In this document: positions 540 to 31,961 of the stretch, piece by piece
Position numbering within the stretch: position 1 is the first letter of the stretch
How the letters are laid out: each line of letters begins with the position of its first letter
Assembly: GCA_001898145.1 (NCBI GenBank)
Contig: MKSR01000036.1
Span: 1-64,000, forward strand
Length of the DNA: 64,000 bases
Source of the DNA: Dyadobacter sp. 50-39
GTDB taxonomy: Bacteria > Bacteroidota > Bacteroidia > Cytophagales > Spirosomataceae
Reading direction: 5' to 3'
Program-made: the position numbers and the translations under genes
The notes under the pieces: generated by a model
Seen by the model: the letters and a program-made list of their open reading frames with translations, nothing else
Told to the model about the DNA's origin: nothing
The model's database searches: none

Positions 540-1103
540 CTAACGTGCGTTTCTTATACGACTTAGGGTATAGGGCATAATGCCCAAGAAATTAGCAATA
601 TCCCGTAGCTTTATCCGGGCAGCGGGAAATTGCTCCTGGAAAATTGAGTAAGCTTCGTTGGCTGGTAAAATGAGGATATCGCCTCGTTCCCTTAAACGGC
701 GTCTTTCGATTAGATAAACGGCCTGGGCTAAGCGGCGGGCTTCACAGAACTGCTTCACCAGTCTTTCCAGGTCGAAATTGGAAATGGAAATCAGTATGGT
801 ATCTTCCACAAAAAGCAGGTGTTCGGCTTCATGAATGCTGTTTTGCTTTGTTATCACAAACATCTTCTCCCACCAGAACCCAGTAACTATCTCCCTGCCT
901 TGTTGATTAAAGTAATTGCCTTTTACCAAACCGGAAACGACAAAGTAGACGGCACTTTTGCTGATGACTTTAGGGGCTAATTCCGTATTTTTTTCAAACC
1001 GTTCAACAATAACCTTTTCGGATAATTCGGCGATAAACTCATCTGAAATCGGCGAGAGTTTGGCCAGTAAGTCTAATAGTTTTCCGGTTGCTGCACCTTT
1101 CAT
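540..1103 (-). CDS. Crp/Fnr-family transcriptional regulator
   Basis: A 187-residue protein of the short Crp/Fnr type common in Bacteroidota. The N-terminal two thirds fit a cyclic-nucleotide-binding-like beta roll (AVYFVVSGLVKG followed by QGREIVTGFW), then a long helix with the charged stretch YLIERRRLRERG. The C-terminal helix-turn-helix reads RIKLRDIANFLGIMPYTLSRIR, close to the usual layout of these regulators. The ligand cannot be predicted. Its ATG lies one base beyond the stop of the upstream 399-residue gene, so the two are probably translated from one message. It is the last gene of the minus-strand run that begins with the LanB gene and may regulate that run. Confidence 0.8.
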   Translation of the reverse strand: MKGAATGKLLDLLAKLSPISDEFIAELSEKVIVERFEKNTELAPKVISKSAVYFVVSGLVKGNYFNQQGREIVTGFWWEKMFVITKQNSIHEAEHLLFVEDTILISISNFDLERLVKQFCEARRLAQAVYLIERRRLRERGDILILPANEAYSIFQEQFPAARIKLRDIANFLGIMPYTLSRIRNAR

Positions 1104-1104: not shown

Positions 1105-2304
1105 TCAGTATTCTTTTATCCAGTTTACCATTCCTTCCAGCATCCTGATGACAACTGCCTTGTCGCCTTCTTCAAAGGCATACGATTTGTTGCGCATGCT
1201 TTCCTGTGAAATGTCCTCCTTCCGTGGTGTAGAGAGGTACGGGGCTATCGTCTGGATAACCGTATTCAGCGATTTGGCTTTCACGACCCGTGTAGCATCC
1301 ATCGCGCGGAGCGCCAACGCGACCTGATCAACGGATAAGAAACACATGATCTTGAACGGGTCCGTCTTGATCTTGGGAGCTTGTTGCTGCTGGTTCTGAA
1401 GAGGTAGTACGTCCCACTGATGCTTCTTTTCTAGGTAAGTGATTTCCTGGGCAAACCAGTTGCCCAGCACTTTCTTTAAATCGGCGTGGTGCGGGTTGAG
1501 CTTCACGGCGGGCTTTCGGTGCATCTGGTTAAATTCCTTGTATGCTAAAAGCAGCTCTGTCATCTTTTCGTGAACTGCCCCATATGCGTTAATTTTTTGC
1601 GCAAGCTTTTGTGTGTAATAGTTCATAAAGCTGCGACTATTGAAGTTTAGGTATACCAGTAGCTCGACCACAGCGCGGTGTAGCGTCTGCTGATCCTCTT
1701 GCTGGCTGATCTTTTCAAGTCCAGCCAGCAGGTCTTTCTTGTAAAAAACCTCACGGAAAGAGATCGGCCTTTTTTCAGAATCATAAATGAAATAGTGCAG
1801 GCTCTGTGATACCATATCAGTCAAAGCGCGGTTATCGACACGGACGAAGAGCTCCTGACGAAGCAGCTCGAGCCGGTCGAGCATTTCCCTTTTGACCTGT
1901 GCCAGGTAGGCTGCCGGTACCCGTTCATCCAGGCTCAGATATTCGTGAAACCGGTTTTCTACAAAGCCCAATAACTCATCCAGACTCGATGAAATGCTCA
2001 CCAGCGCATCGTGCAGAATGCTCAGATTGCTTTCCGCCCTTGATGTATTTTCATAAGCCTGGTCAAGCAGCATGACAAGGCTTGCATGATATTGTCTGAT
2101 CAATAGTTGGATTTTACGGCGAGAGTCCAGATGAAAGCTCTGGTGTTTGAGAAACGAAATATGTCGGTCTTTTTCCTCTTGTGCTTTGGCGACAATTGTT
2201 TCCAGCTGCTTTGCTGTCAAGGTGCTGACATCGGTCTTACCCTCATTAAGGGTCACATTAATGATAAAATCAAGCCATTCGAGCGTATAGTTTTTTTCCA
2301 GCAT
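1105..2304 (-). CDS. Hypothetical protein, 399 residues, in lanthipeptide-like locus
   Basis: Soluble, largely helical protein with no signal peptide or membrane helix. The first 180 residues are rich in Leu, Glu and Lys and look coiled-coil-like. The last 85 residues form a separate segment (LSVDQVALALRAMDATRVV, then TPRKEDISQESMRNKSY) of a kind I associate with proteins on Bacteroidota conjugative elements, but I cannot name a domain. It sits 61 bases downstream of the small candidate precursor peptide and is coupled to the Crp-family gene. There is no similarity to LanC: the Trp-His, Cys-His-Gly zinc motifs of cyclases are absent. Function unknown. Confidence 0.65.
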   Translation of the reverse strand: MLEKNYTLEWLDFIINVTLNEGKTDVSTLTAKQLETIVAKAQEEKDRHISFLKHQSFHLDSRRKIQLLIRQYHASLVMLLDQAYENTSRAESNLSILHDALVSISSSLDELLGFVENRFHEYLSLDERVPAAYLAQVKREMLDRLELLRQELFVRVDNRALTDMVSQSLHYFIYDSEKRPISFREVFYKKDLLAGLEKISQQEDQQTLHRAVVELLVYLNFNSRSFMNYYTQKLAQKINAYGAVHEKMTELLLAYKEFNQMHRKPAVKLNPHHADLKKVLGNWFAQEITYLEKKHQWDVLPLQNQQQQAPKIKTDPFKIMCFLSVDQVALALRAMDATRVVKAKSLNTVIQTIAPYLSTPRKEDISQESMRNKSYAFEEGDKAVVIRMLEGMVNWIKEY

Positions 2305-2365: not shown

Positions 2366-2503
2366 TTAGTTCTGGGCGACCAGCGTACATATTGTGCCGC
2401 TCGTCGTGATAGGATCATCGTCGTCTGGTGTAGGCCCGAGATGGATCGTTTTTACTTTGGGTAGCGAATGGACTACTAGTTTCGGTTTGCGCGTTCTTTT
2501 CAT
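2366..2503 (-). CDS. Candidate lanthipeptide-type precursor peptide (45 residues)
   Basis: A 45-codon gene with an ATG at 2503 and TAA at 2366. The N-terminal part is strongly basic (MKRTRKPKLVVHSLPKVK), followed by TIHLGPTP, an acidic run of four Asp, and a C-terminal tail PITTSGTICTLVAQN with four Thr, one Ser and one Cys. This leader-like plus Ser/Thr/Cys tail layout is that of a RiPP precursor, and it lies in the same transcription direction as a full-length LanB dehydratase with a LytS/LytTR pair between them. Its start is preceded by GTTAGAACCAA, which is also found just before the LanB start. The precursor role is inference: no known leader motif such as FNLD is present, and only one Cys is available for ring formation. 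Confidence 0.55.
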   Translation of the reverse strand: MKRTRKPKLVVHSLPKVKTIHLGPTPDDDDPITTSGTICTLVAQN

Positions 2504-2515
2504 TGCGTTTGCTGT

Positions 2516-2526
2516 TTGGTTCTAAC
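2516..2526 (-). promoter_or_regulatory. Shared 11-base leader element upstream of the peptide gene
   Basis: On the minus strand the sequence GTTAGAACCAA ends 12 bases before the ATG of the candidate precursor peptide. The identical 11-mer lies before the lanB start (7688-7698). It may be a translation-enhancing leader or a regulator site; its role is inferred from recurrence only. Confidence 0.35.
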
Positions 2527-2606
2527 ACCAGCAAAGCAATGATTTGGATCGGCTAGGGGCAATTTTTGGGGCTGAACCGGAATGCGCAGGGGCTAAAAGT
2601 GCTGTT

Positions 2607-3791
2607 TCAGGGTTTTTGTTGAAGCGGTATCGAAAGCGTTACAGCGTAGTTGCGGTGGGTTTCCGTGATTTGCACTTCATGACGGCCTGGATATAACAGA
2701 TCCAGCCGCCGTTGAATATTCTTTAGGCCGAGTCCGTGCGCGCTGCTTTTGCGCGGCTTGTTAGCAGCGAAGGGTTTATCATTCTCAATTGAAAATCGCA
2801 GTTGCCCCATGTCTACGTGAATGTTGATCCTGACAGTGGACTTTCCCGAGTGGGAGCGAACGCCATGTTTTATCGCATTTTCAGCCAGAGTGACCATTAA
2901 AAGGGTGGGGATTTTATGTATCGCGTTACTACCTCCCTGGTGGTTCCAGATAATCCGTAGCCTCCGTCCGTGGCGGAGACGTTCGAGTTGAAGGTAACGT
3001 TTAAGACCTCTGATCTCAGCTGAAAGTGGTACCCAATCATCATTGGTTTCGTAAAGTGTGTATTTGAGAAGTTGGGATAACTTTTCAAGATAACCCGCTG
3101 CATCCCTGGAAATAGGTAGAATTTTGGCATAGGCAGAACTGATTACGTTGTAAACGAAATGAGGTTCAAGCTCCGATTTCAGGATATTAAGCTCACTTCG
3201 CAATGCTTCTTTTTCAAGTCGCGCCTGCAGCATTTGTTGTCTGAGACCAAATTGTACCATTTTAATCCCAACCGGAAGAACCAAAAGCTGTAGTTCCTGA
3301 AAATCGTAGACGAAAAATAGCCGCTCCCAGCCGTTACGGTGGCTCAGTGGTTTCAGATATAAACCGCCAATTGCCTGAAAGGCTGGGCTTAACTGGGAAA
3401 GGTTGTAGAGGCGGTCAAGGCCGAAATACATTGCCAATGTTACAAGGTGCATACTGCCAAACAAAACCACAAGCATCAGCAGCAGCAGCGATAGGCCTGA
3501 AAACTTTCGCTCGAACCGGTAGAAGAGGTGTACCGACAGATAAAAGATAGGAATAAACCGAAGGTAGTATACGGTGTAGGAGATTCCGAGTTTGGCGTCA
3601 AGGGCCTGGCCCGAAAATGCGGGCAGGAAATACAGTAGGTGATAAGCGACAAAAAATGCCCAGAAACCAATATGGTATCCCGGGCGCAATCTGCCGCTTA
3701 GGTTGAAAAGGCCCCAGAAAGGTTCTTTGGTCAGCTCATCCCATCCGCTTAAACCCGGTCGTGAGCCGGAGGATAATTTCGTTTCGCTCAT
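2607..3791 (-). CDS. LytS-type sensor histidine kinase
   Basis: Membrane sensor kinase of the His_kinase (LytS/YehU) class, about 394 residues from the ATG at 3791; the longer frame to 3800 would need a TTG. The N-terminal half contains about four hydrophobic segments (near residues 41-60, 75-90, 100-123 and 165-180). The phosphoacceptor region reads SELEPHFVYNVISSAY with His near residue 211, and the C-terminus has the ATPase motifs LAENAIKHGV and GLGLKNIQRRLDLLY. It overlaps the end of the response-regulator gene by 56 bases, so the two are co-translated. Located between the candidate precursor and LanB genes, it plausibly senses the product or a host signal for this locus. Confidence 0.88.
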   Translation of the reverse strand: MSETKLSSGSRPGLSGWDELTKEPFWGLFNLSGRLRPGYHIGFWAFFVAYHLLYFLPAFSGQALDAKLGISYTVYYLRFIPIFYLSVHLFYRFERKFSGLSLLLLMLVVLFGSMHLVTLAMYFGLDRLYNLSQLSPAFQAIGGLYLKPLSHRNGWERLFFVYDFQELQLLVLPVGIKMVQFGLRQQMLQARLEKEALRSELNILKSELEPHFVYNVISSAYAKILPISRDAAGYLEKLSQLLKYTLYETNDDWVPLSAEIRGLKRYLQLERLRHGRRLRIIWNHQGGSNAIHKIPTLLMVTLAENAIKHGVRSHSGKSTVRINIHVDMGQLRFSIENDKPFAANKPRKSSAHGLGLKNIQRRLDLLYPGRHEVQITETHRNYAVTLSIPLQQKP

Positions 3792-4536
3792 CTTTGGCAA
3801 TGCTTACTTTATAGTTGTTAAGCATCTTGATAGTGCTACCTTCGATGCTGTTTACCTGGTACCGGTTAACGATATAGGACCGGTGCGTTTTAACAAAGTG
3901 TTCAGGCAAGCCTTGATAAATTTCACTGACAGTGGCCCGGGTTCTTATGATATTGCCGCCTGTGCAAAAAATGGCAACATAGTTGTGCTGGCCTTCGATA
4001 AAGCAAATGGTCTGATAGGGTATTGCATATAATCGGCGGTCAAATTTGACCCAGAGCGAGGTGGCATCAAAATGAGGTGTTTGTAGCGGATAATCCGTTG
4101 CCGAAATGTTTTGTTCTGCAAGTTTTTCGGGTCGAGACTGCTGCACCGGGGATTTCTTCTGCTTCTTCTCGAGTGCTTTGCTGACTGCCTTCACAAAATT
4201 TTTGTAGCTGACAGGCTTTGAAAGAAATCCCAACACATCGTAATCATATCCATCAATCGCGTATTTCTGGTGGGCGCTGGTGACGATTACCGAACTTCCC
4301 AACCACGGAACCATCTGTAAAAGCTCCAATCCAGACAGTTCCGGCAGGTTAATGTCAAGGAAAACCAGGTCCGGCCGGAGCTTGCTAATGCATTGCAACC
4401 CTTGCAAGGCATCCTCGCAGGTTTTGATTAATGTCAAACTTGACATTTCCGAAATATGTGTTTTCAGAATGCGGCGGGACGAGGGCTCATCATCGATAAT
4501 GACGCACCGGGTTGGAGAGATCGGTTGTGTGTTCAT
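3736..4536 (-). CDS. LytTR-family response regulator
   Basis: 266 residues. The receiver domain spans about residues 8-125 with acidic pair IIDDE (15-16), phosphoacceptor Asp near 61 in LVFLDINLPELSG, and the conserved Lys near 107 in FLSKPVS. A C-terminal LytTR DNA-binding domain covers about 165-262 (ICFIEGQHNYVAI, then HFVKTHRSYIVN). It is encoded directly downstream of the LanB gene (77-base gap) and overlaps the partner kinase. By family precedent it binds paired direct repeats in promoters; I did not find an unambiguous pair. Likely target is the lanB/peptide locus. Confidence 0.9.
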   Translation of the reverse strand: MNTQPISPTRCVIIDDEPSSRRILKTHISEMSSLTLIKTCEDALQGLQCISKLRPDLVFLDINLPELSGLELLQMVPWLGSSVIVTSAHQKYAIDGYDYDVLGFLSKPVSYKNFVKAVSKALEKKQKKSPVQQSRPEKLAEQNISATDYPLQTPHFDATSLWVKFDRRLYAIPYQTICFIEGQHNYVAIFCTGGNIIRTRATVSEIYQGLPEHFVKTHRSYIVNRYQVNSIEGSTIKMLNNYKVSIAKDERNEIILRLTTGFKRMG

Positions 4537-4613
4537 AACAGTTCATTGGCCTGCCCGCGCAACCGGGCTGATGGTGTCAGATAAGGTTAATTTAAGACAC
4601 AAGCGGTTACTTA

Positions 4614-7600
4614 TCAAATTTTTGTTGATGATTTTTTACCCTTCAGCTGATAGTCGTAAAACTTCTTAAGAAAATGATAGATTGCGTGTTCCTGTCGACG
4701 TTGATCGCTGATGAACAGCCTGTTACAGCACAAGTGCATTAGATCGATTATCAGCGTTTGCTGTATTTGGTGATCGCCCATCGGATTGCGGGTCAGCGTG
4801 TGCATGATCTTGGCATCCCGTTCATTTAGTTGCTGATGGATTTCGGCTAAAACGGTGCTGTCCGAGGCCATGGCGGTAGCGATGTGCTCCCTGTGTTGGC
4901 GGAACTGCTGATCCAAGGCTATCAGGTCGTTTTTTTCAAGAAGGTTACCAGCTGCCTGAAGCGTTTGGAGCTTCATTGCCGGGTTATATTTTCCGAATGC
5001 AGTAAGCAGGCCATCGCAGGCTATCATTGCGACCAGCCAACGCTGTGTTTGCTGACCATTCAATTGTAGCAGCGCGATGGAGCTGGCGATCGCGTAGCTA
5101 TCGCTGCAAAAGATAGACTCGATATCCTCGTATCCAACGCTGCTGTATCTTTCCAGTTCCCTTTCATAGAGCTCAGATTGTAGCCGAAATACCAGGCCGC
5201 TTTCAATTTCATCTTTCAGTTTTTCTGTCAACGATATCGCAAATCGTGCACTTTGCTGTTTGCCAGGGCCGGTAAAGAGCCTAAGCCGAATATGTGGATC
5301 CGGATCCTTGAATCGAAGGAAAAACCAGCCTTTGATGCGGTTGGTCTGTTGCAGTGTGAGACAGAAATCAAATAGTTTTCCGACCAGTAGCCTTTCACAA
5401 GTTTCTTCGCTGGCGTATATTTTCAGGTATGTCCAGCCATCCTGGGCAGATACCCATCTCTTGCTTGCCTGCTGATGTGTCACAAGTAGCGGCTCAACGA
5501 GCTTTGGCTCAACATCGTTAAAGATCGGTATAACCATCTCATTGAGATGCATCTTCCTGCCTGCGTGAAGAAACCCGTATTTTACTGAGTGCAAAGATTC
5601 CTGGATACACAAGCTCTTTTCCTTACGCAGTTTATTCAAACAAATCCTAACTGCCGGGGCTGAATGTCCATCGATTGACAGGAGCTGGTCGTTGGTCCCG
5701 ATCAGAACAAAGCGGGGCATGTTGAGCTCTTTTTCAAGGCCTTGCCACCACCTTACAAGTTCCTGGTCACTGAGCGCCTTTTTGGGGATCAACGAAGGGC
5801 CAAGGTTCCAACATGCCTTGCGCAAAACAATGCCGCGATACTGGATACGGGGAAGAAATAGGCTATCACTGAGGTGTCCCCAGTCCCATAGGGGTGTAAG
5901 TGCGTTTTCACTTACTGCAACATCCGCCAGAAATTGGTAGGCGGATGGTCCAAGCCTTGGGTTATAGGCCGTGGTGAGCCTGGGGATAATGCGTTTTCGC
6001 AATGAAGCAGAACTGACGATCACTTGTCCCGCTCGCACGCTTACCATTAAATCACTGGCCGCAATAGAAGTGCCTGACTGGCCTGGCCCACACAACAGGT
6101 TGATATGGTAGTCACCCAGGGATGGACGACGTACTACATTTGCGTCCTTTCCGGCTGGCACGAAATTGACCTCAGCTACGATTGCGCCTGCATATTGTCC
6201 TATCTCTTTGGCCTTAACAGCTCTTAAGCGATCTGCAAGGGGTGTATCCGCGTCTGCAAAACGAGATAAGAAATGCAGTGATCCAGGGCCAGAAATGCCG
6301 CGAAGGTCAAAAAAGTAATCGCCCCCATCAAAATCTCGCTCCCCGGAGCAGAACAGGTTGCCCAGCACCGAAACGCCTTCTGCGATCCTGGGCGGATGCT
6401 CTGGCTGTATCAGCTTGAGGTCTTCGTCGGTTAAGAGATAGAATTTTCTTTTGAAATGCCTCGCGTCATGGTAAGCCCTATCGATCAGCTTGACCCGTTC
6501 AACCGCAGATGGTGTTGTCGTCCGGGATTGTTTGGTTTGGGAGGCCATCGGAACGTGGCCAAAGTAAGATGAATTCATATGGCCGTAGCCGATACCAAGC
6601 GCCGGGTCGAGTGCTTGCAACAACGGGACTTGTTTGTCCCCGTAGCGCTGGTAGAATCTGGTTGCGAAGGATTTGAGCGCTTCGGGTTTACGATTTTGAG
6701 TTGTGCGTAGTAGTTTGCCAAGATCAGCCACAATCCCTTTCACACTTTCCCGGCTAACCGTCGACATTGTCGTTTCAAATTCCATATCGATCTGCACCGG
6801 GTTTCGCTCGGCGATACCTGCCGCACTCAAACTGGCTTCGAGCGCGGCAAACCGTGCAGGGTCATCCCGTCTTCCCCTCGCCAATGCGGCAGTCTGCTCG
6901 AATACCTTGACCAGTTGCGGCTCGGTCTGAGAAATCTTTCTTAGCACATTCTCAAAAGTGCTCAGGCTTACCAATGGTTCGGTATTACCGGTCAAAATTT
7001 GCTCCGCACACAATTGAGCAACATACTCGGAGGCATGCCTGTGCGGGAGACCTTGTCGGCATAGCGCCTGAACAATCGTTGATACTTTCGCGCCCGATCG
7101 GGCTGCCTGCAGTGCAGTGACAAGGTACAGATCGTTTTGGACTTCTTTCAAGGCAAATTCGAAGGTGCCCTCGCCTGTGGGTGCTCGCTCAGTGAAGCGC
7201 AGGTAGTCGCCGTTACGGTATAGACTGCTGTTAACTGTCAATATTTCGTCGGTCCTTTTCGAGCTTAACCGCCTGGCTATTTGCTGCAAGACGTGAGCAT
7301 TCAGGGTCGTGTGCTTTTTAATCTTTCCGCTAAACTCGATTTGGGTGTGCTCGGAAAGTTCTGCAACGAAATACCCTGCAAAAAGACCAAAGGGAGTACA
7401 ACGGCTTGCCGCCCGTGCGAAGTATTTGTACAGGCTCAGCATCACATTCGGGTCCGCTGGCTCGGCCTCGCCCATGTTCTCCATTTTGACTAAGGAGTCG
7501 TAGAGCGCGGGCGAGGCCAAGTAGAGCGCTTCTCTGAGGATGGGCCGTTTGTATGCCTGGCAGAGCAACGCTTTGAGCGAATCCGGCTTTTTTTTCAGCT

Positions 7601-7682
7601 GGCCATTAAGCTTTCTTAGAATCGAGTAGGGCAATAGCGGTCTTCTCAGGACGACAAAGTCATGTGGTTCGAGTTTGTTCAT
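4614..7682 (-). CDS. Lantibiotic dehydratase (LanB, full length)
   Basis: A 1022-residue class I lanthipeptide dehydratase. Family members use glutamyl-tRNA to activate Ser/Thr of a precursor and then eliminate glutamate to give dehydro-residues. The N-terminal glutamylation domain shows HDFVVLRRPLLPYS at residues 7-20 and the hallmark SRCTPFGLFAG at about 93-103. The C-terminal elimination domain (SpaB_C / thiopeptide-type) starts near residue 748 with GWTYLKIY, then WFFLRFKDPDPHIRLRLF and YERELERYSS. I chose ATG 7682 because the protein then begins like other LanB proteins; the longer frame to 7736 adds 18 atypical residues. It is the first gene of the minus-strand run. No LanC, LanT or LanP gene is visible in the window. 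Bases 7699-7900 upstream hold no other recognisable feature. Confidence 0.9.
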   Translation of the reverse strand: MNKLEPHDFVVLRRPLLPYSILRKLNGQLKKKPDSLKALLCQAYKRPILREALYLASPALYDSLVKMENMGEAEPADPNVMLSLYKYFARAASRCTPFGLFAGYFVAELSEHTQIEFSGKIKKHTTLNAHVLQQIARRLSSKRTDEILTVNSSLYRNGDYLRFTERAPTGEGTFEFALKEVQNDLYLVTALQAARSGAKVSTIVQALCRQGLPHRHASEYVAQLCAEQILTGNTEPLVSLSTFENVLRKISQTEPQLVKVFEQTAALARGRRDDPARFAALEASLSAAGIAERNPVQIDMEFETTMSTVSRESVKGIVADLGKLLRTTQNRKPEALKSFATRFYQRYGDKQVPLLQALDPALGIGYGHMNSSYFGHVPMASQTKQSRTTTPSAVERVKLIDRAYHDARHFKRKFYLLTDEDLKLIQPEHPPRIAEGVSVLGNLFCSGERDFDGGDYFFDLRGISGPGSLHFLSRFADADTPLADRLRAVKAKEIGQYAGAIVAEVNFVPAGKDANVVRRPSLGDYHINLLCGPGQSGTSIAASDLMVSVRAGQVIVSSASLRKRIIPRLTTAYNPRLGPSAYQFLADVAVSENALTPLWDWGHLSDSLFLPRIQYRGIVLRKACWNLGPSLIPKKALSDQELVRWWQGLEKELNMPRFVLIGTNDQLLSIDGHSAPAVRICLNKLRKEKSLCIQESLHSVKYGFLHAGRKMHLNEMVIPIFNDVEPKLVEPLLVTHQQASKRWVSAQDGWTYLKIYASEETCERLLVGKLFDFCLTLQQTNRIKGWFFLRFKDPDPHIRLRLFTGPGKQQSARFAISLTEKLKDEIESGLVFRLQSELYERELERYSSVGYEDIESIFCSDSYAIASSIALLQLNGQQTQRWLVAMIACDGLLTAFGKYNPAMKLQTLQAAGNLLEKNDLIALDQQFRQHREHIATAMASDSTVLAEIHQQLNERDAKIMHTLTRNPMGDHQIQQTLIIDLMHLCCNRLFISDQRRQEHAIYHFLKKFYDYQLKGKKSSTKI

Positions 7683-7687
7683 AGCGC

Positions 7688-7698
7688 TTGGTTCTAAC
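7688..7698 (-). promoter_or_regulatory. Shared 11-base leader element upstream of lanB
   Basis: Minus-strand GTTAGAACCAA ends five bases before the LanB ATG at 7682 and is identical to the element before the small peptide gene (2516-2526). It supports 7682 as the start and suggests coordinated expression of enzyme and peptide. Role inferred. Confidence 0.35.
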
Positions 7699-7900
7699 AG
7701 GTTACACCCTGGTAAAATCAGTGCTGAAAAGACCAAATAGAAATTTCAGGGACGAATCACGTCATGGAGGGTACGAAAGGATGTGTTTGAGGGAGGATTT
7801 AGATGTTTTGACCCGAAACAAGCCAAAAAGTGCAGCCAAGCTACCGGCGGCGATTCCTGAGCCCGCTGTTAAACAGCCAAAAGTGTTCGGCATAACCGCG

Positions 7901-8077
7901 CTACTGCGCTTTCTTATTCCGCTTCCTTTTGGCCGGTGCGCCACCGGTTGTGCAGAGCTTTCTTTTTTTCTTGTTTTTTCTTTGGGTCAAAACATTGTCG
8001 TTTTCGGCAGGCAGATCATCGGAAAGCAGGGCGAAAAGAACGGGTTCAATCTTATAATTTAAACCGTTTAAGCTCAT
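7901..8077 (-). CDS. Possible small basic protein, divergent from the DUF932 gene
   Basis: A 58-codon frame starting ATG at 8077, whose start codon overlaps the start codon of the plus-strand DUF932 gene (8076). The product ends in a very basic tail (RKNKKKRK, then KRKRNKKAQ), which could bind nucleic acid. There is a competing plus-strand frame through the same bases, so it may not be a gene. No family recognised. Two divergent start codons sharing bases would leave no room for ordinary leaders, which argues against one of them. Confidence 0.25.
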   Translation of the reverse strand: MSLNGLNYKIEPVLFALLSDDLPAENDNVLTQRKNKKKRKLCTTGGAPAKRKRNKKAQ

Positions 8078-9143
8078 GGCGCACAACATTCATTTCAACG
8101 AAAACACAGGCAAACATTCCTTTTTCTCCGTCAAAGAGAAAGCATGGCACGGCCTTGGCCTGATCGTGGACAACTGCGGGTTAAGCAGTGAGGCAATCGC
8201 CTACGCAGGCCTTGACTACGACGTCGTAAAATCTCCGCTTTTTACTACCGGGATTACGACCGGTAACGGGGACGGCGTAACTATCCACGAGCCCGGACAG
8301 GCTACTGTTCCGGGATATTACGCGACCCAGCGCATAGATACCGGTCAGGTACTCGGCGTGGTCGGCTCGGATTACCGGGTAGTACAGAACCGCGACGCGT
8401 TCACATTTTTTGACAGCATCGCAGACGGTAAAGGCATACGCTACGAAACAGCGGGAGGCCTCGGAAGCGGGGAACGTATATTTATCACCGCCAAGATCGA
8501 CGACAAAATCATAGTCGGTAAAAACGATGAAATCGAGCAGTACCTTTTTCTGACCAATTCGCACGACGGTTCTGGAAGTATTACCGTGGCTTTTACCCCA
8601 ATCCGGGTGGTATGCCAAAATACACTGAATGCAGTCGTCGGAAGTTTGTCCTCCGCTGTACGCATCCGCCACACGGCAAGTGCTAAGGAGCGGCTCGCAT
8701 CTGCCCATAAATTGATGGGGATGGCCGCAAAGATTTCAGTACAGACCGAAGCGGTTTTTAATAAGTGGGCCAAAGTCCGCATCACAGACGGCCAGCTGCG
8801 TCGACTGATTCAAATGGCGATGGCGCCAGGAAAAGAAACCCTTGGCAAAATTCAGGATAGCCGGTTTGAGTTGCTCTCTACTCAATTCAATAATCTGGTT
8901 GACCGGGTTTACAGCTATGCGATGGCAAGCCCCGAGCAAAACCTTGAAACGACGGCGGGTACCGTTTTCGGAGCGTACAACGCGGTAACCGGATACTTTC
9001 AAAATGTCAGGTATTACAACACCGCAGAACACAAAGCCAAATCGATCCTTTTCGGAGGAAGTGCAAGCCAGCGCGGTAAAGCAGCTTTTAAGCTTTGTGA
9101 CAGGTTTGCCACGCATGGCCCGGAAATATTCGGATCTAATTAG
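8076..9143 (+). CDS. DUF932 (phage/plasmid-like) protein
   Basis: 355 residues matching the DUF932 / phage-plasmid-like protein family: HFNENTGKHSFFSVKEKAWHGLG at the start in outline, then the paired segments GYYATQRIDTGQVLGVVGSDYRVVQN and ITVAFTPIRVVCQNTLN in outline (shown by their order, not quoted in full elsewhere). The family is common on plasmids, phages and conjugative elements and its biochemical role is not established; an anti-restriction role is sometimes suggested. It is the first gene of the mobile-element backbone block and is followed by a strong hairpin. Confidence 0.85.
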   Translation: MAHNIHFNENTGKHSFFSVKEKAWHGLGLIVDNCGLSSEAIAYAGLDYDVVKSPLFTTGITTGNGDGVTIHEPGQATVPGYYATQRIDTGQVLGVVGSDYRVVQNRDAFTFFDSIADGKGIRYETAGGLGSGERIFITAKIDDKIIVGKNDEIEQYLFLTNSHDGSGSITVAFTPIRVVCQNTLNAVVGSLSSAVRIRHTASAKERLASAHKLMGMAAKISVQTEAVFNKWAKVRITDGQLRRLIQMAMAPGKETLGKIQDSRFELLSTQFNNLVDRVYSYAMASPEQNLETTAGTVFGAYNAVTGYFQNVRYYNTAEHKAKSILFGGSASQRGKAAFKLCDRFATHGPEIFGSN

Positions 9144-9180: not shown

Positions 9181-9498
9181 TAACGGCTAGCCGAAAAAAT
9201 CGCGGCCGCCCTGCGGGGCGGCGGTCAGCGGTGTCGCGGCGGATCGGATAAGGTTTTTGAGAATAAACAGCCGCCGCGACGGGCATTTTTGATTTAGGGG
9301 GATTTCTTTCTTCAGGGATTCATAGGGCGTGGATTAAAGATTGGCCGCTCATTAAGGAGCCAAGTTAGCCGGGCTGGCTCTGGAAGCGGTATGAAATTCC
9401 GGCATAAAACACCGGCCTTGCATGCCGGCATTTATTCCGTTGCTTCACGCCGCTTATCGCCCTCCGGCAAGTGCTGCACCATAATTCACTTAAACCAG
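9181..9498. other. Gene-free GC-rich spacer before the radC-like gene
   Basis: About 318 bases without a convincing gene. A second hairpin lies at 9205-9222 (GCCGCCC, loop TGCG, GGGCGGC), in a stretch of CG-rich sequence. The upstream in-frame extension of the RadC-like frame (from 9391) has no family resemblance and is taken as non-coding. Confidence 0.4.
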
Positions 9499-9975
9499 AT
9501 GATTATGGAAACGCTAGCAAGATTTACACAGACTTTTCAGGTAGCAGAAATTGACCTGATCTACAAAACAGGCTTCAACGTAACCGAGCGTCCGAAAATA
9601 ACTCAGGCTACTGACGCTTATGAGCTACTGCTTAAGAACTGGAATCAGGGAAGACTAGGCTTTGTTGAAGAATTCAAAATCCTGCTGCTCAACCAGGGCA
9701 ATTTTGTTTTGGGAGAATACCAGGTTTCACAAGGGGGCGTAAGCGCCACATCAGTAGACGTACGACTTATTTTTGCCGCTGCGTTGAAAGCAAACGCGTC
9801 AGGACTAATCCTTGCACATAACCACCCATCAGGACAGCTGTATCCGTCCGATGCAGACCGCAGCGCAACCCGCAGGATATGTGAGGCGGCAACCCTTTTT
9901 CAAATCGATGTGCTGGATCATCTAATCATCACAAGCGGATCTTTCTATTCTTTTTTAGAGGGCGGCGACCTTTGA
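9499..9975 (+). CDS. RadC-like JAB-domain protein
   Basis: About 158 residues from the ATG at 9499. It carries the MPN+/JAB metalloprotease-like signature of the RadC family: LAHNHPSGQLYPSDAD gives the HxH, Ser and Asp metal-site pattern, and the C-terminus LLDHLIITSGSFYSFLEGG-like ending is usual. The N-terminal HhH domain of chromosomal RadC is absent, as is typical of copies carried on mobile elements. Despite the name, a DNA-repair role is not supported for this family. A good hairpin terminator follows the stop. Confidence 0.85.
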   Translation: MIMETLARFTQTFQVAEIDLIYKTGFNVTERPKITQATDAYELLLKNWNQGRLGFVEEFKILLLNQGNFVLGEYQVSQGGVSATSVDVRLIFAAALKANASGLILAHNHPSGQLYPSDADRSATRRICEAATLFQIDVLDHLIITSGSFYSFLEGGDL

Positions 9976-10553: not shown

Positions 10554-10701
10554 TGTCTTTCCGTGGTTGGCCAGATGTACAAATGTATCACGCGGCCAGC
10601 CGCGGTGCTTCATTTGGATCTGGCTGCTCGCGCAGGGCGGGCCACTCGGAACTCGTGGTCTTTTGCAGAGTGAGATTTTTGAAACAGATAAACGTCTGGA
10701 C

Positions 10702-11091
10702 ATGGAAGAGGGGAAAGAAATTCGAGAAAAATGGCTTCATGTAAGGCTATCAAGTCAGGAGTCGGCTGAGCTTAACAAGCTTTTCAAGGCAAGTGCAGAA
10801 AGGTATCTGAGCGATTTTGCAAGGAAGAAATTACTCGGCAAACCAGTTCTGGTCGCTACCCGAAACGCATCCCAGGACGGGCTCATCGAACAGCTCGCAG
10901 GGCTCCGTACCGAGCTCTCGCGCCTAGGCACAAACTACAATCAGGCGGTCAAAAAACTGCATGCCGTCTCGCGGATCAAAGACTTTGAGCACTGGCTGGT
11001 TGCCTATGAATTAGACCGCAGAAAACTGCTGTCTCAGGTAGAACAAGCCGGGCTTGTAATTGCTGATTTGGCTGAGCAATGGTCGCAGTGA
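10702..11091 (+). CDS. MobC-like relaxosome accessory protein
   Basis: About 129 residues from the ATG at 10702 (MEEGKEIREKWLHVRLS). Layout fits the MobC family: an N-terminal ribbon-helix-helix-like start (VRLSSQESAELNKLF), a central RKKLLGKPV, then the family-typical LSRLGTNYNQAVKKLH and a C-terminal helix. Such proteins bind oriT and assist the relaxase. The gene overlaps the relaxase by 13 bases, indicating coupled translation. The upstream extension of the frame to 10567 shows no family match. Confidence 0.8.
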   Translation: MEEGKEIREKWLHVRLSSQESAELNKLFKASAERYLSDFARKKLLGKPVLVATRNASQDGLIEQLAGLRTELSRLGTNYNQAVKKLHAVSRIKDFEHWLVAYELDRRKLLSQVEQAGLVIADLAEQWSQ

Positions 11092-12344
11092 TTCACAGTG
11101 GCTCCTCTCTCAGAGAGGCGCTCAACTACAACGAAAATAAGGTCAAACGCGGTGTTGCCGAGTGTATCGACGCCGGTTATTATGTGAAGGACGCGGGAGA
11201 TTTGAGCTACCGGGACAAGTTCTCACGGCTAAAAAAATTGATGGACCTCAATAGCCGGACAAAAGTCAACACGCTGCATATCTCCCTGAATTTTGCAGCA
11301 GAAGATAAACTCGACAAGGCGTCTCTCAGGCAGATTGCCGGCGTGTACCTGGATAAGATCGGCTTCGCATCGCAGCCCTATTTGCTCTACGAGCACCGGG
11401 ATGCGGCTCATCAGCACGTGCATATTCTGACTACGAATATCCGTGCCGATGGAAAAGCTATCAACCTGCATAATATAGGCAAAATCCGCTCGGAAGCTGC
11501 ACGCAAAGAGATCGAGAGCGAGTTCTCTTTGGTGCGGGCCGAAGACCACAAACGGCAGGTTTTTCAGCTTAAACCTGCCGTGCTTTCACCCTTGCAATAC
11601 GGCCGGGCAGAGACAAAGCAAGCCATAGGCAACGTATTGCAAACTGTGATAAAGGGTTATCATTATAGTTCGCTCGTCGAGCTCAATGCTGTTCTCGCGC
11701 AGTACAATATCTATGCCGATCCAGGAGCAGAAGGATCCAGGGTCAGACAGGGCGCAGGCTTGTTGTTCCGTGTTTTGGACGGCAACGGACAAAGCGTTGG
11801 TGTGCCCATCAAAGCCAGTGATTTTCATTTTAAACCAACATTAAAATCATTGCAAAGCCGTTTTCTTGCAGGCAAAATTGCCCGGGAAAAGCATGCAGCA
11901 CGCTTGAAGAATACGATTGACAAGGCTGTTTCTTCCGCTAATTTCGGTGATCTGCCTGCCCTTCAAGAGACGCTAAAATCAGAAGGAGTAGCGCTTGTTC
12001 TGCGCACGAGCAAGACCGGTTTGACCTATGGGCTTACCTACGTCGACCACCGGACTAAGGTAGTCTTTAACGGAAGTGATCTGGGAAAAGCTTATAGTGC
12101 CAAAGCGGTTCAACAGGCGCTTGCATCCCAAATCATGGATAGTCGGCAAAGGATGCAGCACCAGTCTGCTGCACTGGGAACACCAACAATTGGTGGTCAA
12201 TTTAGCCTCCCAACTTTCAGCGGTACTGCACCGGAGAGGAAGCATGAGACAGACGACTTACTCGCTTCCCTATTCAATCCTGAAACCGGCGAGCAGGGCG
12301 TGCCATGGCAGCTTAGAAAGCCACGTCGAAGGCGAGGAAGGTAA
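11079..12344 (+). CDS. Relaxase / mobilisation nuclease (MobA/VirD2 type)
   Basis: 421 residues. The N-terminal 160 residues match the relaxase fold: Tyr candidates in ALNYNEN (near 17) and GYYVKD, and the metal-binding motif EHRDAAHQHVHILTTN with His 106, 111, 113 and 115. It nicks oriT and stays attached to the transferred strand. The remaining part is probably a DNA-binding or helper region; the last 25 residues are Arg-rich. Overlaps mobC upstream and is followed 25 bases later by the coupling protein gene, forming a three-gene mobilisation operon. Confidence 0.88.
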   Translation: MVAVIHSGSSLREALNYNENKVKRGVAECIDAGYYVKDAGDLSYRDKFSRLKKLMDLNSRTKVNTLHISLNFAAEDKLDKASLRQIAGVYLDKIGFASQPYLLYEHRDAAHQHVHILTTNIRADGKAINLHNIGKIRSEAARKEIESEFSLVRAEDHKRQVFQLKPAVLSPLQYGRAETKQAIGNVLQTVIKGYHYSSLVELNAVLAQYNIYADPGAEGSRVRQGAGLLFRVLDGNGQSVGVPIKASDFHFKPTLKSLQSRFLAGKIAREKHAARLKNTIDKAVSSANFGDLPALQETLKSEGVALVLRTSKTGLTYGLTYVDHRTKVVFNGSDLGKAYSAKAVQQALASQIMDSRQRMQHQSAALGTPTIGGQFSLPTFSGTAPERKHETDDLLASLFNPETGEQGVPWQLRKPRRRRGR

Positions 12345-12369
12345 TTTATCAAATCAAAATCATAAGCTT

Positions 12370-14361
12370 ATGAGCATCCAAACTGCAGAAAACCAGCAAG
12401 CTCTGGCGCGCATCTCGGATATGACGCGCCTTCTGTCATTGGCAATTTTGCTGATCCATTTCTACTATTATTGCTACGGGTTGTTCCAGATCGCAGGCTT
12501 TGTAAACGGGTTCGCCGACCGGATCCTGGACAATATTGCAAGGACCGGTCTGTTGAGTGCGGCATATAAATCCAAGGCGATTGCTCTATGCCTGCTTCTG
12601 GTTTCCCTAGTAGGCACCAAAGGCAAAAAACATCAGAAACTAAAAAGCAGGTCAGGTATTTATTTAGCCCTAATCGGTCTCTTGGTCTACTGGCTACCAG
12701 TGTTGATTCTGGGAGTATCTGGTCCTATAAAGCTGCTCGCCGGTCTTTACATTGGCCTGACGCTGATTGGATTTTCGCTCATTCTCTCCGGCGGGACATT
12801 ACTTTCCCGGGTGATCAAAGTGAAACTTGGCGGGGATATTTTTAACCGGGAAAACGAGACCTTTCCGCAAGAAGAGCGCCTTTTGGAAAACGAGTTTTCG
12901 ATCAATCTGCCCGCCGAATATATCCTTAAAGGCAAGTGGCGGAAAAGCTGGATCAACTTCATTAACCCATTTCGCGGGGTTTTGGTGCTGGGTTCTCCGG
13001 GATCGGGAAAAAGCTACTTCGTGATCCGGCACATCATCACCCAGCACATCCGGAAAGGCTTCTCCATGTTTATCTATGATTTCAAATTTGACGATCTATC
13101 GCTGATTGCCTACAACAGTTTCCTGGCTAATCAACGTGCCTACAAAGTTTTGCCGCGGTTCTATACCATCAATTTTGATGACCTGGACCGTAGTGCCAGG
13201 TGCAACCCGCTCGAGCCTTCGACCATGCTCGATATCACTGACGCCGCCGAATCTGCGCGTACAATCCTGCTTGGTTTGAACCGCGAGTGGATCAAAAAGC
13301 AAGGTGATTTTTTTGTAGAATCTTCGATCAACTTTCTTACCGCAGTCATCTGGTTTCTTCGCCGTTACCAGGATGGGGAGTTCTGTACTTTACCTCATGT
13401 GATTGAGCTGATGCAAATGAACTACGATGAGCTCTTTACGGTCCTGCGAACTGAAAAAGAAATCGAGGTATTGGTTAACCCCTTCATTAGTGCATACCTG
13501 AATAACGCCATGGAGCAGCTGGAAGGCCAGATCGCATCTGCCAAGATCGCATTGGCCAGGCTTTCATCACCGCAACTCTATTATGTGCTATCAGGCAATG
13601 ATTTGACACTGGACATCAATAACCCAGACGCCCCCAAGATTCTGTGCATCGGCAATAATCCTCAGAAAATTCAGGTATATGGTGCCGTGATTTCACTCTA
13701 TGCAACAAGGCTCATCAAGCAGGTGAACATGAAGGGTAAGCTGAAAAGCAGTCTGATTTTCGATGAGTTTCCGACCATCTTTCTCAATAACATCGACGGG
13801 CTGATCGCCACAGCGCGGTCTAATAAGGTCGCCACTACCCTGGGTGTTCAGGATGCATCCCAACTCCGGAAAGATTACGGGAAGGAGCTCGCTGAGGTTA
13901 TCGTAAACATCACGGGCAATGTCATCAGTGGTCAGGTTTCTGGCGATACCGCAAAGCACCTCTCGGAGCGGTTTGGTAAAATTCAGCAGGATCGGACAGC
14001 ACTGTCGCTGAACCGGTCGGATACCTCAATCAGCAAGTCGATCCAGTTGGAGCTTGCCATTCCGGCCTCCAAAATTTCGTCAATGAGCTCAGGCGAATTT
14101 GTGGGACTGGTCGCCGACAATCCTGATCAGCCCATCGATTTGAAAGCGTTTCACAACCGCATCTTAAACAATCATCAGGCCTTGGCGGCAGAATCAGCGG
14201 GCTATAAACCGATCCCTGTTGTAAGGCAGATCAGCGGCCAGATCATCAAAAAGGTGTTCGAGCAGATTAAAGATGATGTGCGCGAGATCATTGAAACCGA
14301 GATTGCGAATATCAAACAGGATCCGGCACTGAAACATTTGCTCGTCGCAAAGAAAAAATAG
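12370..14361 (+). CDS. VirD4/TraG-like coupling protein (YWFCY type)
   Basis: 663 residues from ATG 12370; the longer frame overlaps the relaxase and is unlikely. The N-terminus has the Bacteroidota YWFCY-type membrane segment (HFYYYCYGLF, residues 30-39) and two or three further helices to about 143. Walker A is GSPGSGKS at 208-215, and a Walker B-like SLIFDEFPTIF follows. The family links relaxosome to a conjugative pore at the inner membrane. No pore genes are present, so the element would depend on a helper for transfer. It ends shortly before a spacer with a hairpin. Confidence 0.9.
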   Translation: MSIQTAENQQALARISDMTRLLSLAILLIHFYYYCYGLFQIAGFVNGFADRILDNIARTGLLSAAYKSKAIALCLLLVSLVGTKGKKHQKLKSRSGIYLALIGLLVYWLPVLILGVSGPIKLLAGLYIGLTLIGFSLILSGGTLLSRVIKVKLGGDIFNRENETFPQEERLLENEFSINLPAEYILKGKWRKSWINFINPFRGVLVLGSPGSGKSYFVIRHIITQHIRKGFSMFIYDFKFDDLSLIAYNSFLANQRAYKVLPRFYTINFDDLDRSARCNPLEPSTMLDITDAAESARTILLGLNREWIKKQGDFFVESSINFLTAVIWFLRRYQDGEFCTLPHVIELMQMNYDELFTVLRTEKEIEVLVNPFISAYLNNAMEQLEGQIASAKIALARLSSPQLYYVLSGNDLTLDINNPDAPKILCIGNNPQKIQVYGAVISLYATRLIKQVNMKGKLKSSLIFDEFPTIFLNNIDGLIATARSNKVATTLGVQDASQLRKDYGKELAEVIVNITGNVISGQVSGDTAKHLSERFGKIQQDRTALSLNRSDTSISKSIQLELAIPASKISSMSSGEFVGLVADNPDQPIDLKAFHNRILNNHQALAAESAGYKPIPVVRQISGQIIKKVFEQIKDDVREIIETEIANIKQDPALKHLLVAKKK

Positions 14362-23453: not shown

Positions 23454-25073
23454 ATGAAAGTAGCAGATCTGTACGTTAGAGTAAGTACCGATGAGCAAGC
23501 CGATAAAGGCTATTCGCAGCGAGCGCAGGAGGAAGTTTTGCGGAAGTTCTGTGATATAAACAACATTGATGTTCGAGAGGTCGTCTATGAGGACCATTCG
23601 GCGAAAACCTTCGAGCGCCCCCAGTGGTCGCGCCTGCTATCAACCCTCAAAAAGACCAAGGGAAAGATCAATCTGGTACTTTTCACTAAATGGGACCGGT
23701 TTAGCAGAAATGCGGGAGATGCCTATCAAATGATAAACATACTTCGTAAGCTTGGTGTAGAACCGCAGGCAATCGAGCAACCACTTGACTTGTCTGTCCC
23801 TGAAAACAAGATGATGTTGGCGTTTTACCTGGCTGCACCGGAAGTGGAGAATGACCGTCGGGCGTTGAATACATTTCATGGTATGCGGAGGGCACGGAAG
23901 GAAGGGCGGTATATGGGAGTCGCACCAGTGGGGTACGTAAATCGAATAACCGAGGACGGGACAAAGTATATCGCGTTTCATGAGCCCTACGCGACTATCA
24001 TGAAATGGGCCTTTACCGAAATAGCTCGCGGTATTTACGCGGTCGAGGAGGTGTGGAGGCAGGCAAGAAGAAAAGGCCTCAAATGTGGTAAAACCTCGTT
24101 CTGGCGCGCGCTTGAGAACCCTGTCTATTATGGCAAGATTGAAGTGAAAAGTTATCGCGATGAGGAATACCGACTTGTGGACGGCGTACATGATGAGCTT
24201 ATTTCAGAAAAGATTTTTTATGATGTGCAGGATGCGATTGATGGAAAGCGCAAGCGGCAGCGGCCAAACGTGAAAGCAATATCTGATGAAATATTTCCTT
24301 TGCGTGGATTTCTTGGATGTCCCAGGTGCCATAGAATGTTGACCGCTAGCGCTTCGAAGGGGCGGAACGGGCGGTATCATTATTATCATTGTCGTGCGAC
24401 TTGCGGATGCCGGTTTCCCGCGCAGCAGGTCAATGACAAATTCGTCAACGAGCTTAGAAAATTTAAACCAAGAAAAGCGACACTTCGGATATTTAAAAAA
24501 CTATTGCTTGAAGAGTATTCCGATCAAAACAGAGCCAGCAAGAGCGAACAAAAGTCTTTGCACGAGCAAATTCAAAAGCTGAACGGAAAATTAGGTAAAG
24601 CCAGGGAGCTTTTGCTGACATCGGAATTGGATTCGAAAGATTATAAGGTAATCAAGTCTGAAATTGAGGAACAGTTAATCCGTCTAGAGGCGCGGCTTTT
24701 GGAAACATCTCGCCAAGTTCAGCCAGCAGTTCGAAACATCGAACAAATGACTGAAAGGGCGCTCGAAGCGCTATTAAATCTGGATAGTTTGTTTTTGGGA
24801 GCAGATTCCGAAGCCAAACGACAAATTATCGGTTCGATTTTTCCAGAAGGCTTAATTATCTCAGAAGAAGGATGTCGAACCGCAAAAGTCAACGAAGTTG
24901 CGGCTCTTATCTATCAGATTAACAGTGACTTATACAAAGGAAAAACCGGAACTTACGACGAAAATTCGTCAAAGTTCCGGTTAGTACCCAGAGCCGGAGT
25001 CGAACCGGCACGAGTGTTACCTCATTGGTGTTTGAGACCAACGCGTCTACCAATTCCGCCATCTGGGCATTGA
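23454..25073 (+). CDS. Large serine recombinase (site-specific integrase) at tRNA-Leu
   Basis: 539-codon frame. Resolvase-type catalytic domain at residues 1-150 with the nucleophile Ser 11 in LYVRVSTDEQ, followed by the recombinase domain (GVAPVGYVNR), a zinc ribbon (CPRCHRMLTAS, then HYYHCRATCGC) and a coiled-coil region (about 355-430). Residues from about 497 are encoded by the tRNA terminator and, from about 511, by the antisense of the tRNA-Leu gene, so the natural C-terminus in the excised form probably differs. Catalyses integration and excision of the element; its gene next to the tRNA 3' end marks the right junction. Confidence 0.92.
   Translation: MKVADLYVRVSTDEQADKGYSQRAQEEVLRKFCDINNIDVREVVYEDHSAKTFERPQWSRLLSTLKKTKGKINLVLFTKWDRFSRNAGDAYQMINILRKLGVEPQAIEQPLDLSVPENKMMLAFYLAAPEVENDRRALNTFHGMRRARKEGRYMGVAPVGYVNRITEDGTKYIAFHEPYATIMKWAFTEIARGIYAVEEVWRQARRKGLKCGKTSFWRALENPVYYGKIEVKSYRDEEYRLVDGVHDELISEKIFYDVQDAIDGKRKRQRPNVKAISDEIFPLRGFLGCPRCHRMLTASASKGRNGRYHYYHCRATCGCRFPAQQVNDKFVNELRKFKPRKATLRIFKKLLLEEYSDQNRASKSEQKSLHEQIQKLNGKLGKARELLLTSELDSKDYKVIKSEIEEQLIRLEARLLETSRQVQPAVRNIEQMTERALEALLNLDSLFLGADSEAKRQIIGSIFPEGLIISEEGCRTAKVNEVAALIYQINSDLYKGKTGTYDENSSKFRLVPRAGVEPARVLPHWCLRPTRLPIPPSGH
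24936..24982 (-). terminator. Terminator of tRNA-Leu
   Basis: On the minus strand, two bases after the tRNA 3' end, an 11-bp stem (AACCGGAACTT / AAGTTCCGGTT, 24944-24954 and 24972-24982) encloses a second stem (GACGAA / TTCGTC) and is followed by a T-run. It overlaps the coding frame of the recombinase C-terminus. Confidence 0.8.
24985..25068 (-). tRNA. tRNA-Leu (CAA)
   Basis: 84-base tRNA without encoded CCA. Acceptor GCCCAGA pairs with TCTGGGT (one G-U pair), D-arm GGAATTGGTAGACGC, anticodon stem TTGGT/ACCAA with loop CTCAAAC giving anticodon CAA, a long class II variable arm (TGAGGTAACACTCGT), and T-arm GCCGG TTCGACT CCGGC. Discriminator A. It is the integration target of the serine recombinase element on its 3' side. 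Confidence 0.96.
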
Positions 25074-26428: not shown

Positions 26429-26597
26429 GGCATTTGAAGCTGGTGCACCAGAAACAGGGTTTGGTCGTTAGTATTGAGGCCCCCCGGGAATCCGGACGGG
26501 ACCGGGGCATTCGAAACCGGAACGAGATTTGTGGAAGATTTCGGAACCTGACGGTTTCTTTACTATATTTAATCTTTACCTGAATGTAAAACTGCGC

Positions 26598-27884: not shown

Positions 27885-27926
27885 CGAAAAGTTAACAGCG
27901 TAAGAAAAGCGTTTGAAATCACACCG

Positions 27927-27953
27927 ACCGTGCGTTATCGCACGGTTTTTTGT
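27927..27953 (+). terminator. Rho-independent terminator
   Basis: ACCGTGCG, loop TTAT, CGCACGGT and a seven-base T-run, 43 bases after the stop of the secreted protein gene. Confidence 0.88.
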
Positions 27954-28072
27954 TTTTATAAATCAATATAAATTTCTGATTAACAGTGTGTTGTGCATTG
28001 GCATGGATTTCGGATAAAGGAAGGTGTATTAGCCATGAATTTTTTCCATTGAAAACCTCCAATCAAACCCAC

Positions 28073-31063: not shown

Positions 31064-31081
31064 CCATACCCGTACCGTGCC

Positions 31082-31744: not shown

Positions 31745-31961
31745 TGAGTTAATGAGTGAATGAGTGAATGACTGAATAGGTCGAGAGGCCAAAAATGGTC
31801 ATGACATTGTCAAGATTAGTTTAATACAACACCTGACCACTTGACCAGTCCTGACAGAACATTCACACATTCAAAATTCATTCAGTCATCGCTCCGGCGA
31901 CCCGGTCACACATTCAAAATTCACTCATTCAGTCATTCAATCATTCGGTCATTCAATCATT
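31742..31961 (+). repeat. Repeat arrays and 21-base motif copy (spacer 2)
   Basis: The left array starts at the ATPase stop codon (31742-31778, units GTTAATGA/GTGAATGA), then about 80 unique bases, then the right TCATTCAC-type array (31861-31961). The right arm contains one copy of the conserved 21-base motif at 31888-31908, beginning ATCGCTCCGG and ending CGACCCGGTCA. Confidence 0.9.

Follow-up and report, generated by a model that had tools for sequence, protein, structure and literature searches.

Class I lanthipeptide systems, such as those of nisin (dehydratase NisB, cyclase NisC) and maddinglicin (dehydratase MadB), are built around a full-length two-domain LanB and a small precursor with an N-terminal leader and a Ser/Thr/Cys tail; the nisin system also has a linked two-component pair. 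The locus described here lies at the left end of contig C36 (354,897 bases) in the 7.7-Mb genome of Dyadobacter sp. 50-39, of which positions 1-64,000 were analyzed (hereafter, the window). It shares with these systems the two-domain LanB, with its fold and catalytic residues, and the small precursor, but its cassette has neither a zinc-competent LanC cyclase nor a peptidase-type exporter, and its 45-residue peptide has a single Cys and a very short tail. Class I lanthipeptides of the same phylum, the Bacteroidota, include those with NF038153 leaders, the pinensins, and the products of Runella and Chryseobacterium clusters; the latter were produced in E. coli from refactored clusters and have three thioether rings (excerpt of PMC9993889). 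In contrast, neither the window peptide nor five tested relatives encoded in the same slot beside LanB match NF038153, although one slot peptide of a sister LanB clade does.

LanC-like proteins without the zinc motif have been reported from Bacteroidales, where they occur without any LanB (excerpt of PMC10352776), whereas here such genes adjoin some of the related LanBs (loci L006, L007, L087, and L201). A class I cluster with LanC has been described in the Dyadobacter/lanthipeptide literature (excerpt of PMC12584681), and no description of LanC-free LanB-peptide cassettes was recognized in the literature searched (open-licence PMC papers). At least one large lanthipeptide survey used the LANC_like profile as its search anchor (excerpt of PMC7268733), so that LanB loci without a LanC-like neighbor fall outside it.

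We consider it probable (about 0.6) that the locus is a LanC-free, class-I-like cassette for a ribosomally synthesized and post-translationally modified peptide (RiPP), tied to mobile-element genes, with a product that would be a signal read by the LytS/LytTR pair rather than a stand-alone antibiotic. The sequence-based comparison demonstrates a dedicated 45-residue precursor that occurs one-to-one with, and diverges together with, a LanB whose catalytic residues are intact, as well as a cassette devoid of a zinc LanC and a peptidase exporter. In function, such a cassette would parallel the earlier half of the class I pathway. It is not filed as a lanthipeptide system, since no zinc-dependent LanC accompanies it and lanthionine in the product is beyond sequence analysis. 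An earlier model-made note on the window (the sequence-only reading) had proposed a LanB-type RiPP locus with a hidden 45-residue precursor and no LanC; its observation is confirmed, and its interpretation is largely supported.

The precursor peptide and its LanB

The 45-codon ATG frame directly follows the LytTR/LytS pair, whose LytTR and His_kinase domains are both matched by profile, and encodes MKRTRKPKLVVHSLPKVKTIHLGPTPDDDDPITTSGTICTLVAQN, with the basic N-terminus, four Asp, and Thr/Ser/Cys tail with a single Cys that had been ascribed to it. On comparative grounds it is a real gene, because relatives occupy the same slot beside LanB and the protein sequence of the tail has stayed fixed despite divergence at synonymous sites. 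A genus-wide search for LanB at E values up to 1e-40 gave 65 matches in 63 loci (two loci being in two pieces each). All of these loci were fetched, their genes were mapped, and a LanB tree was built, in which the window LanB belongs to a clade of 30 loci. The expected homologs adjoin these LanBs: within the fetched stretch, 26 of the 30 loci have a small gene in the same slot. The remaining four comprise one locus at a contig end (L116), one decayed locus (L082), one with the peptide 17 kb off (L073), and L074, for which a second peptide of the genome lies on another contig (L120) and was paired by count only. The own genome has a paralog near a second LanB (59%), and orthologs were found in two other species (71-73%).

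The leaders of 27 aligned slot peptides are divergent, and the tail is fixed, ending in TTSGxxC (24/27) or ITTCTIIS (3/27) with two invariant Thr residues. Random substitution had been named in advance as a sign against the gene; in three orthologs, the last 17 codons show a proportion of synonymous differences (pS) of 0.65 and of nonsynonymous differences (pN) of 0.02, with a pN of 0.23 in the rest of the peptide. The tail codons of five wider-group members yield pS 0.77 and pN 0.11, and those of a second subgroup pS 0.54 and pN 0.09. Among 11,110 small frames from the 63 loci, 25 end in [ST]TSGxxC, where letter shuffling predicts 0.15, and all but two of these (23) sit in the LanB-linked slot. 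The 45-codon gene is the only one of 548 small frames in the window with a TTSG-type ending. None of the refuting conditions set by the sequence-only reading was borne out. Searched against Pfam and NCBIfam, the peptide matched no curated family.

A peptide profile was run over 222 genomes of the family, with up to 31 initial candidates scored per genome and matches with E above 6e-4 taken as chance. It detected 28 copies in 18 of the 48 genus genomes, all below E 1e-7 (the next match is at 7e-4), and a single copy, also below E 1e-7, in the 174 genomes outside Dyadobacter (Rhabdobacter roseus, G155). When the best 80 of 570 named LanB relatives were inspected, slot peptides of the TTSG or ITTC type were again seen in Dyadobacter and Rhabdobacter loci only. 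The numbers of clade LanBs and peptides are equal in 18 of the 20 genomes bearing such LanBs, the own genome having four of each. Protein distances of LanB correlate with those of the peptide (r 0.78, n 26), LytTR (r 0.93, n 57), LytS (r 0.90, n 57), the 399-residue protein (r 0.65, n 23) and Crp-like protein (r 0.76, n 23) encoded downstream, and the relaxase MobB (r 0.78, n 14), each with a permutation p of 0.001; these correlations also mirror shared descent and fall short of proving contact. The LanB is linked, as in class I systems, to a precursor with a leader and a core of Ser/Thr plus Cys. A 7.9-kb contig labelled Nostocales cyanobacterium LEGE 12452 (L168) carries a LanB 65% identical to that of the window and is probably a Dyadobacter contaminant.

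The LanB is full-length, as the sequence-only reading had it, with both glutamylation and elimination domains: residues 64-693 match Lant_dehydr_N (4e-105) and residues 768-1027 match Lant_dehydr_C (3e-47), in the numbering of the 1040-residue form that starts at an in-frame TTG at 7736. It matches MadB, MibB, and NisB by sequence, and its model (predicted local distance difference test, pLDDT, 83) matches the folds of MadB (5e-46), MibB (2e-44), and NisB (4e-42), the MadB structure being 9g04 according to the fold listing and an excerpt of PMC12241602. The NisB residues R786, R826, and H961, mutation of which stops elimination (excerpt of PMC4979651), have R801, R845, and H983 as their counterparts here, and all 27 aligned clade LanBs (the cut or truncated L088, L116, and L117 excluded) keep these three residues. 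Arg87 and Thr89 of NisB, which are among the residues required for dehydration (excerpt of PMC7296275), align with R94 (27/27) and T96 (26/27); R90 is likewise invariant.

Cyclase, exporter, and the form of the product

The absence of a visible LanC, claimed for the window, extends to the whole contig C36, on which no LANC_like match was found; LanC queries gave no match in the window. The LANC_like matches elsewhere in the own genome are two weak neighbors of other LanBs, a protein kinase-LanC fusion, and a GH76-type glycosidase. The survey was extended with LANC_like to 48 genomes and with a genus LanC profile to the 18 peptide-bearing genomes, in six of which the peptide-LanB pair was found without LanC: G008 has no LANC_like match at all, and G024, G030, G036, G038, and G046 have matches only at profile positions of the GH76 kind (an assignment drawn from the single own-genome case), plus one 17-bit match in a 1417-residue frame of G046. 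Judged by the zinc ligands of NisC (named in an excerpt of PMC7296275), the LanC-like genes that do adjoin clade LanBs (L006 and L007 of the own genome, L087, and L201 of Rhabdobacter) have lost all three ligands, as has the LanC-like gene L156 of G009, which lies 12 kb beyond the peptide. A zinc-competent LanC is missing across the clade and not just from this window.

Two further kinds of LanC-like genes were seen in the genus. Tandem LanC-like genes near LanB, with one copy zinc-complete and the other missing some or all ligands (L064, L068, L098, and L103), are perhaps a catalytic and a helper cyclase. The own-genome fusion (L057, on contig C43) is a 782-residue protein kinase plus LanC-like protein with CHG and CCG motifs, class III/IV-like, and eight further genus genomes have frames of similar length.

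A peptidase-type ABC exporter was found in none of the 30 clade stretches versus 10 of the 33 other LanB stretches (one weak), in a survey made with two peptidase-ABC queries that did not extend to exporters or proteases of other types. In the window, such queries match weakly at 31 kb and 58-60 kb, and by these two queries the locus has no dedicated exporter of this type. The sequence-only reading saw no exporter, which holds at the locus and fails over the whole window, where a MacB/HlyD/outer-membrane efflux set is present at 25-33 kb. This set lies beyond a tRNA-Leu gene, outside the cassette, and might serve as a general route of export.

Of the data at hand, positions 35 and 39 of the peptide, counted from the invariant TT, give the best hint of a ring: they are Ser and Cys in 24 of 27 peptides and Cys and Ser in three. 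Both polarities retain the i,i+4 Ser/Cys pair, and none of the 27 peptides has two Ser or two Cys, an exchange expected if the two residues are bridged. The product would probably have one small lanthionine ring plus dehydro residues; the earlier suggestion of a mainly dehydrated peptide is thereby refined, as the exchange argues for one small thioether ring over a purely linear form. The rival that survives best, though we hold it unlikely, is that LanB dehydrates only and leaves a linear dehydropeptide with Cys39 free or capped. The single Cys of the window tail and the six peptide-bearing genomes without LanC agree with it, but a swap of Ser35 and Cys39 at kept spacing, in three loci, is hard to explain by a free thiol.

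It is quite improbable that the peptide is an ordinary lantibiotic served in trans by a LanC and an exporter from elsewhere in the genome. PF05147 matches do occur in 37 of the 48 genus genomes, the own-genome kinase-LanC included, and the efflux set at 25-33 kb could be called upon; against this stand the six genomes in which the pair has no LanC match or only GH76-kind ones, and the loss of the zinc site in LanC-like genes beside clade LanBs. A trans-acting LanC is weakened by these observations.

Comparison with a sister LanB clade of 12 loci bears on the role of the peptide. A similar slot peptide is present in all 12, and the slot peptide families of the two clades align by profile with a probability of 92%. 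Of two sister-clade slot peptides tested, one matches NF038153 (L064, 26.3 bits with a cut-off of 22) and one does not (L077). Four sister loci (L064, L068, L076, and L080) have, besides the slot peptide, GG-type precursors, an exporter, and a stronger LanC, and the three GG-type precursors tested all match NF038153; no GG-type precursor was seen in the remaining eight loci. Since four loci add this equipment and eight show no GG-type precursor, we suspect the slot peptide of being an inducer that is able to persist on its own. Very improbable, by comparison, is a small protein that serves the two-component system as a separate regulator or membrane peptide and is no LanB substrate. It would suit the position beside LytS and the want of a curated precursor match for the peptide itself, but conservation is centred on Thr/Ser/Gly/Cys of the tail, counts agree with the LanB clade, the profile link leads to a slot peptide family that includes one member with a class I leader, and the peptide profile finds no match, genus-wide, where the downstream gene module stands without LanB. 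Scarcely credible is a LanB acting as a peptide-aminoacyl-tRNA ligase (PEARL) that adds a residue to the peptide: PEARLs are relatives of LanB and are not known to have the elimination domain, which here is complete, with its three catalytic residues invariant.

Downstream module and mobile-element genes

The features of the locus are listed in Table 1. A minus-strand run leads from LanB through LytTR, LytS, and the peptide to the 399-residue and Crp-like genes, and the divergent side of LanB carries the DUF932, RadC, MobC-like, MobB-like, and TraG-type genes. Contig C36 begins with base 1 of the window, so the left flank was read from orthologous loci instead.

Table 1. Features of the LanB locus and its surroundings in the window
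Feature	Position	Strand	Basis
Precursor peptide, 45 aa, conserved tail ITT-S35-GTI-C39-T	2366..2503	-	frame, relatives, alignment, pN/pS
Full-length LanB dehydratase, glutamylation and elimination domains, 1022 aa from ATG at 7682	4614..7682	-	profiles, fold, residues
LytTR response regulator, receiver and LytTR DNA-binding domain	3736..4536	-	profile match
LytS-type histidine kinase (PF06580), 65-base overlap with the regulator gene	2607..3800	-	profile match
All-helical protein, 399 aa, without family assignment, next gene of the cassette	1105..2304	-	no Pfam or PDB fold match
Crp-like small regulator	540..1103	-	homologs in L005 and L007 match cNMP_binding below cut-off; window copy without Pfam match
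Intergenic stretch holding a large nested inverted repeat, kept in related loci	7683..8075	.	RNA energy, conservation
DUF932 plasmid-type protein	8076..9143	+	profile match
RadC-like JAB protein	9391..9975	+	profile match
MobC/NikA-like mobilization protein	10567..11091	+	
MobB-like relaxase	11079..12344	+	above Pfam relaxase cut-off, below curated MobB cut-off
TraG/T4SS coupling protein with YWFCY domain	12241..14361	+	
Large serine recombinase, frame end crossing a tRNA-Leu gene; may mark the right end of the element	23454..25073	+	

The 399-residue and Crp-like genes are present in 23 of the 30 clade stretches and in none of the 33 others. The AlphaFold model of the 399-residue protein (pLDDT 82) has no PDB fold match, the best E value being 0.95. 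RteC was considered as the identity of this protein and rejected: PF09357 was absent from the matches of 24 members (E up to 10), and a PF09357 search of the own genome gave nothing. Past the Crp-like gene, clade loci encode a MauE-like membrane protein (17/30), a small secreted DUF6520-like protein (19/30), and a convergent SusD (15/30, one weak), the latter often with SusC and a thioredoxin-like protein. This neighborhood was surveyed by tblastn with family members; the families of the MauE-like, DUF6520-like, and SusD neighbors were assigned on single members, many stretches end before that region, and the DUF6520 profile gave one weak match in the own genome. Near the 33 other LanBs, MauE and DUF6520-like matches were absent, and SusD matches did not exceed 96 bits. 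The 399-residue and Crp-like genes and, in many relatives, the SusCD/thioredoxin neighborhood thus belong to the picture. In the G003 ortholog of the cassette, an AbiEi/AbiEii-type toxin-antitoxin pair adjoins the Crp-like gene (L257:15143-17019).

Five copies of the downstream module without LanB were fetched (L249-L253). In three of them (L249-L251), a TetR-type gene, its family tested in L249, replaces the LanB-LytTR-LytS-peptide segment. The module of these three copies comprises 399-residue, Crp-like, MauE-like, and DUF6520-like genes and convergent SusD-SusC-thioredoxin genes, and two of the three lie near MobB.

MobB is found near 14 of the 30 clade LanBs compared with none of the 33 others. 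The two closest orthologous loci, L256 and L257, have a run of tra genes after SusCD. In L256, the TraG, DUF4134, and TraJ families (CTnDOT-type) were recognized by profile past SusCD, and the Mob genes flank LanB on its opposite side; L257 has look-alike genes, and in the window the contig stops short of the corresponding region. The sequence-only reading placed the locus on a mobilizable element; since its two closest orthologs carry tra genes, the element may be conjugative, not just mobilizable. The arrangement of L256 resembles CTnDOT-type elements, but the cargo is the LanB-peptide-LytS/LytTR cassette with SusCD, and the 399-residue gene is not RteC.

The serine recombinase frame runs across the tRNA-Leu gene (24984-25068, opposite strand), which is likely an integration edge; the ten genes tested past it are of chromosomal kind, e.g., MacB, HlyD, and LepA. 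A left edge was sought in the window by direct repeats of the tRNA-Leu region, and the one match, of 13 bases at 47.5 kb, was judged to be chance. Among 72,556 plasmid records, 85 match LanB, all at under 60% identity, so there is no close plasmid copy of it. The large inverted repeat upstream of LanB, with a computed RNA energy of about -122 kcal/mol, was first taken for a LanB promoter. Four related loci share the block at 76-86% conservation, and nine others share part of it. It mostly accompanies DUF932 or its remnants, and in L082 it lies away from LanB; L105 and L063 carry it without a DUF932 match. It is possibly a transfer origin or leader.

Proposed mechanism and significance

LanB would bind the N-terminal half of the peptide, glutamylate Ser/Thr of the tail from Glu-tRNA, and eliminate glutamate to produce dehydro residues, for which Thr33, Thr34, and Ser35 are the likeliest sites. 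Judging from the Ser/Cys exchange, Cys39 may add to dehydroalanine 35, either unaided or held in LanB, yielding one small ring. Gene order, with the peptide gene placed straight after the two-component pair and a TetR-type gene taking this place in three of the five LanB-free modules, suggests that the modified peptide would leave by a general export route and be sensed by LytS/LytTR, which would steer the 399-residue and Crp-like genes together with the SusCD/thioredoxin surface module of relatives.

Several observations weigh against this reading. The fold matches of LanB have template modeling (TM) scores of 0.58-0.63 and a whole-chain root-mean-square deviation of 17-19. Some clade loci are decayed, with LanB cut in L088 and split in L117, and neither peptide nor kinase in L082. 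The Ser/Cys exchange is probably one evolutionary event, seen in three close loci with LanBs tightly clustered in the tree. Some of the 18 peptide-bearing genomes hold LanC-like genes that could supply a cyclase in trans: the own genome (G000) carries the kinase-LanC fusion, and G023, G027, and G044 have frames of similar length; in G003, G020, and G022, a LanC lies near other LanBs, zinc-complete in the first two and probably so in G022; and a 653-residue frame of G018 gives a strong LANC_like match. A MacB-type permease pair and HlyD-type and outer-membrane efflux genes lie in the window itself (25184-33215), just past the tRNA-Leu gene. The evidence for the putative signal role is gene order; two of the five LanB-free modules (L252 and L253) have no TetR gene in the place of the cassette, and the contig stops too early to show SusCD next to the copy in the window.

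A bolder version of the preferred reading, possible and advanced only tentatively, is a family of self-closing lanthionine pheromones. LanB alone would dehydrate the TTSGxxC tail, the ring would form without a cyclase, and the product would be a private LytS/LytTR signal for the SusCD/thioredoxin module, moved among Dyadobacter by conjugative elements; larger class I clusters would carry the slot peptide as an inducer, and this family would have kept the inducer only.

This conserved family occurs in 18 of the 48 Dyadobacter genomes searched, and most of its loci would be missed by a LanC-anchored search. If the proposed reading is true, the peptide would be an unusually small natural LanB substrate, its Ser/Cys pair in both polarities would offer a natural test of cyclase-free ring closure, and the product would be a candidate modified peptide signal in Bacteroidota. 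Our analysis suggests that a minimal family of modified peptides, whose members are perhaps signals, has been overlooked.

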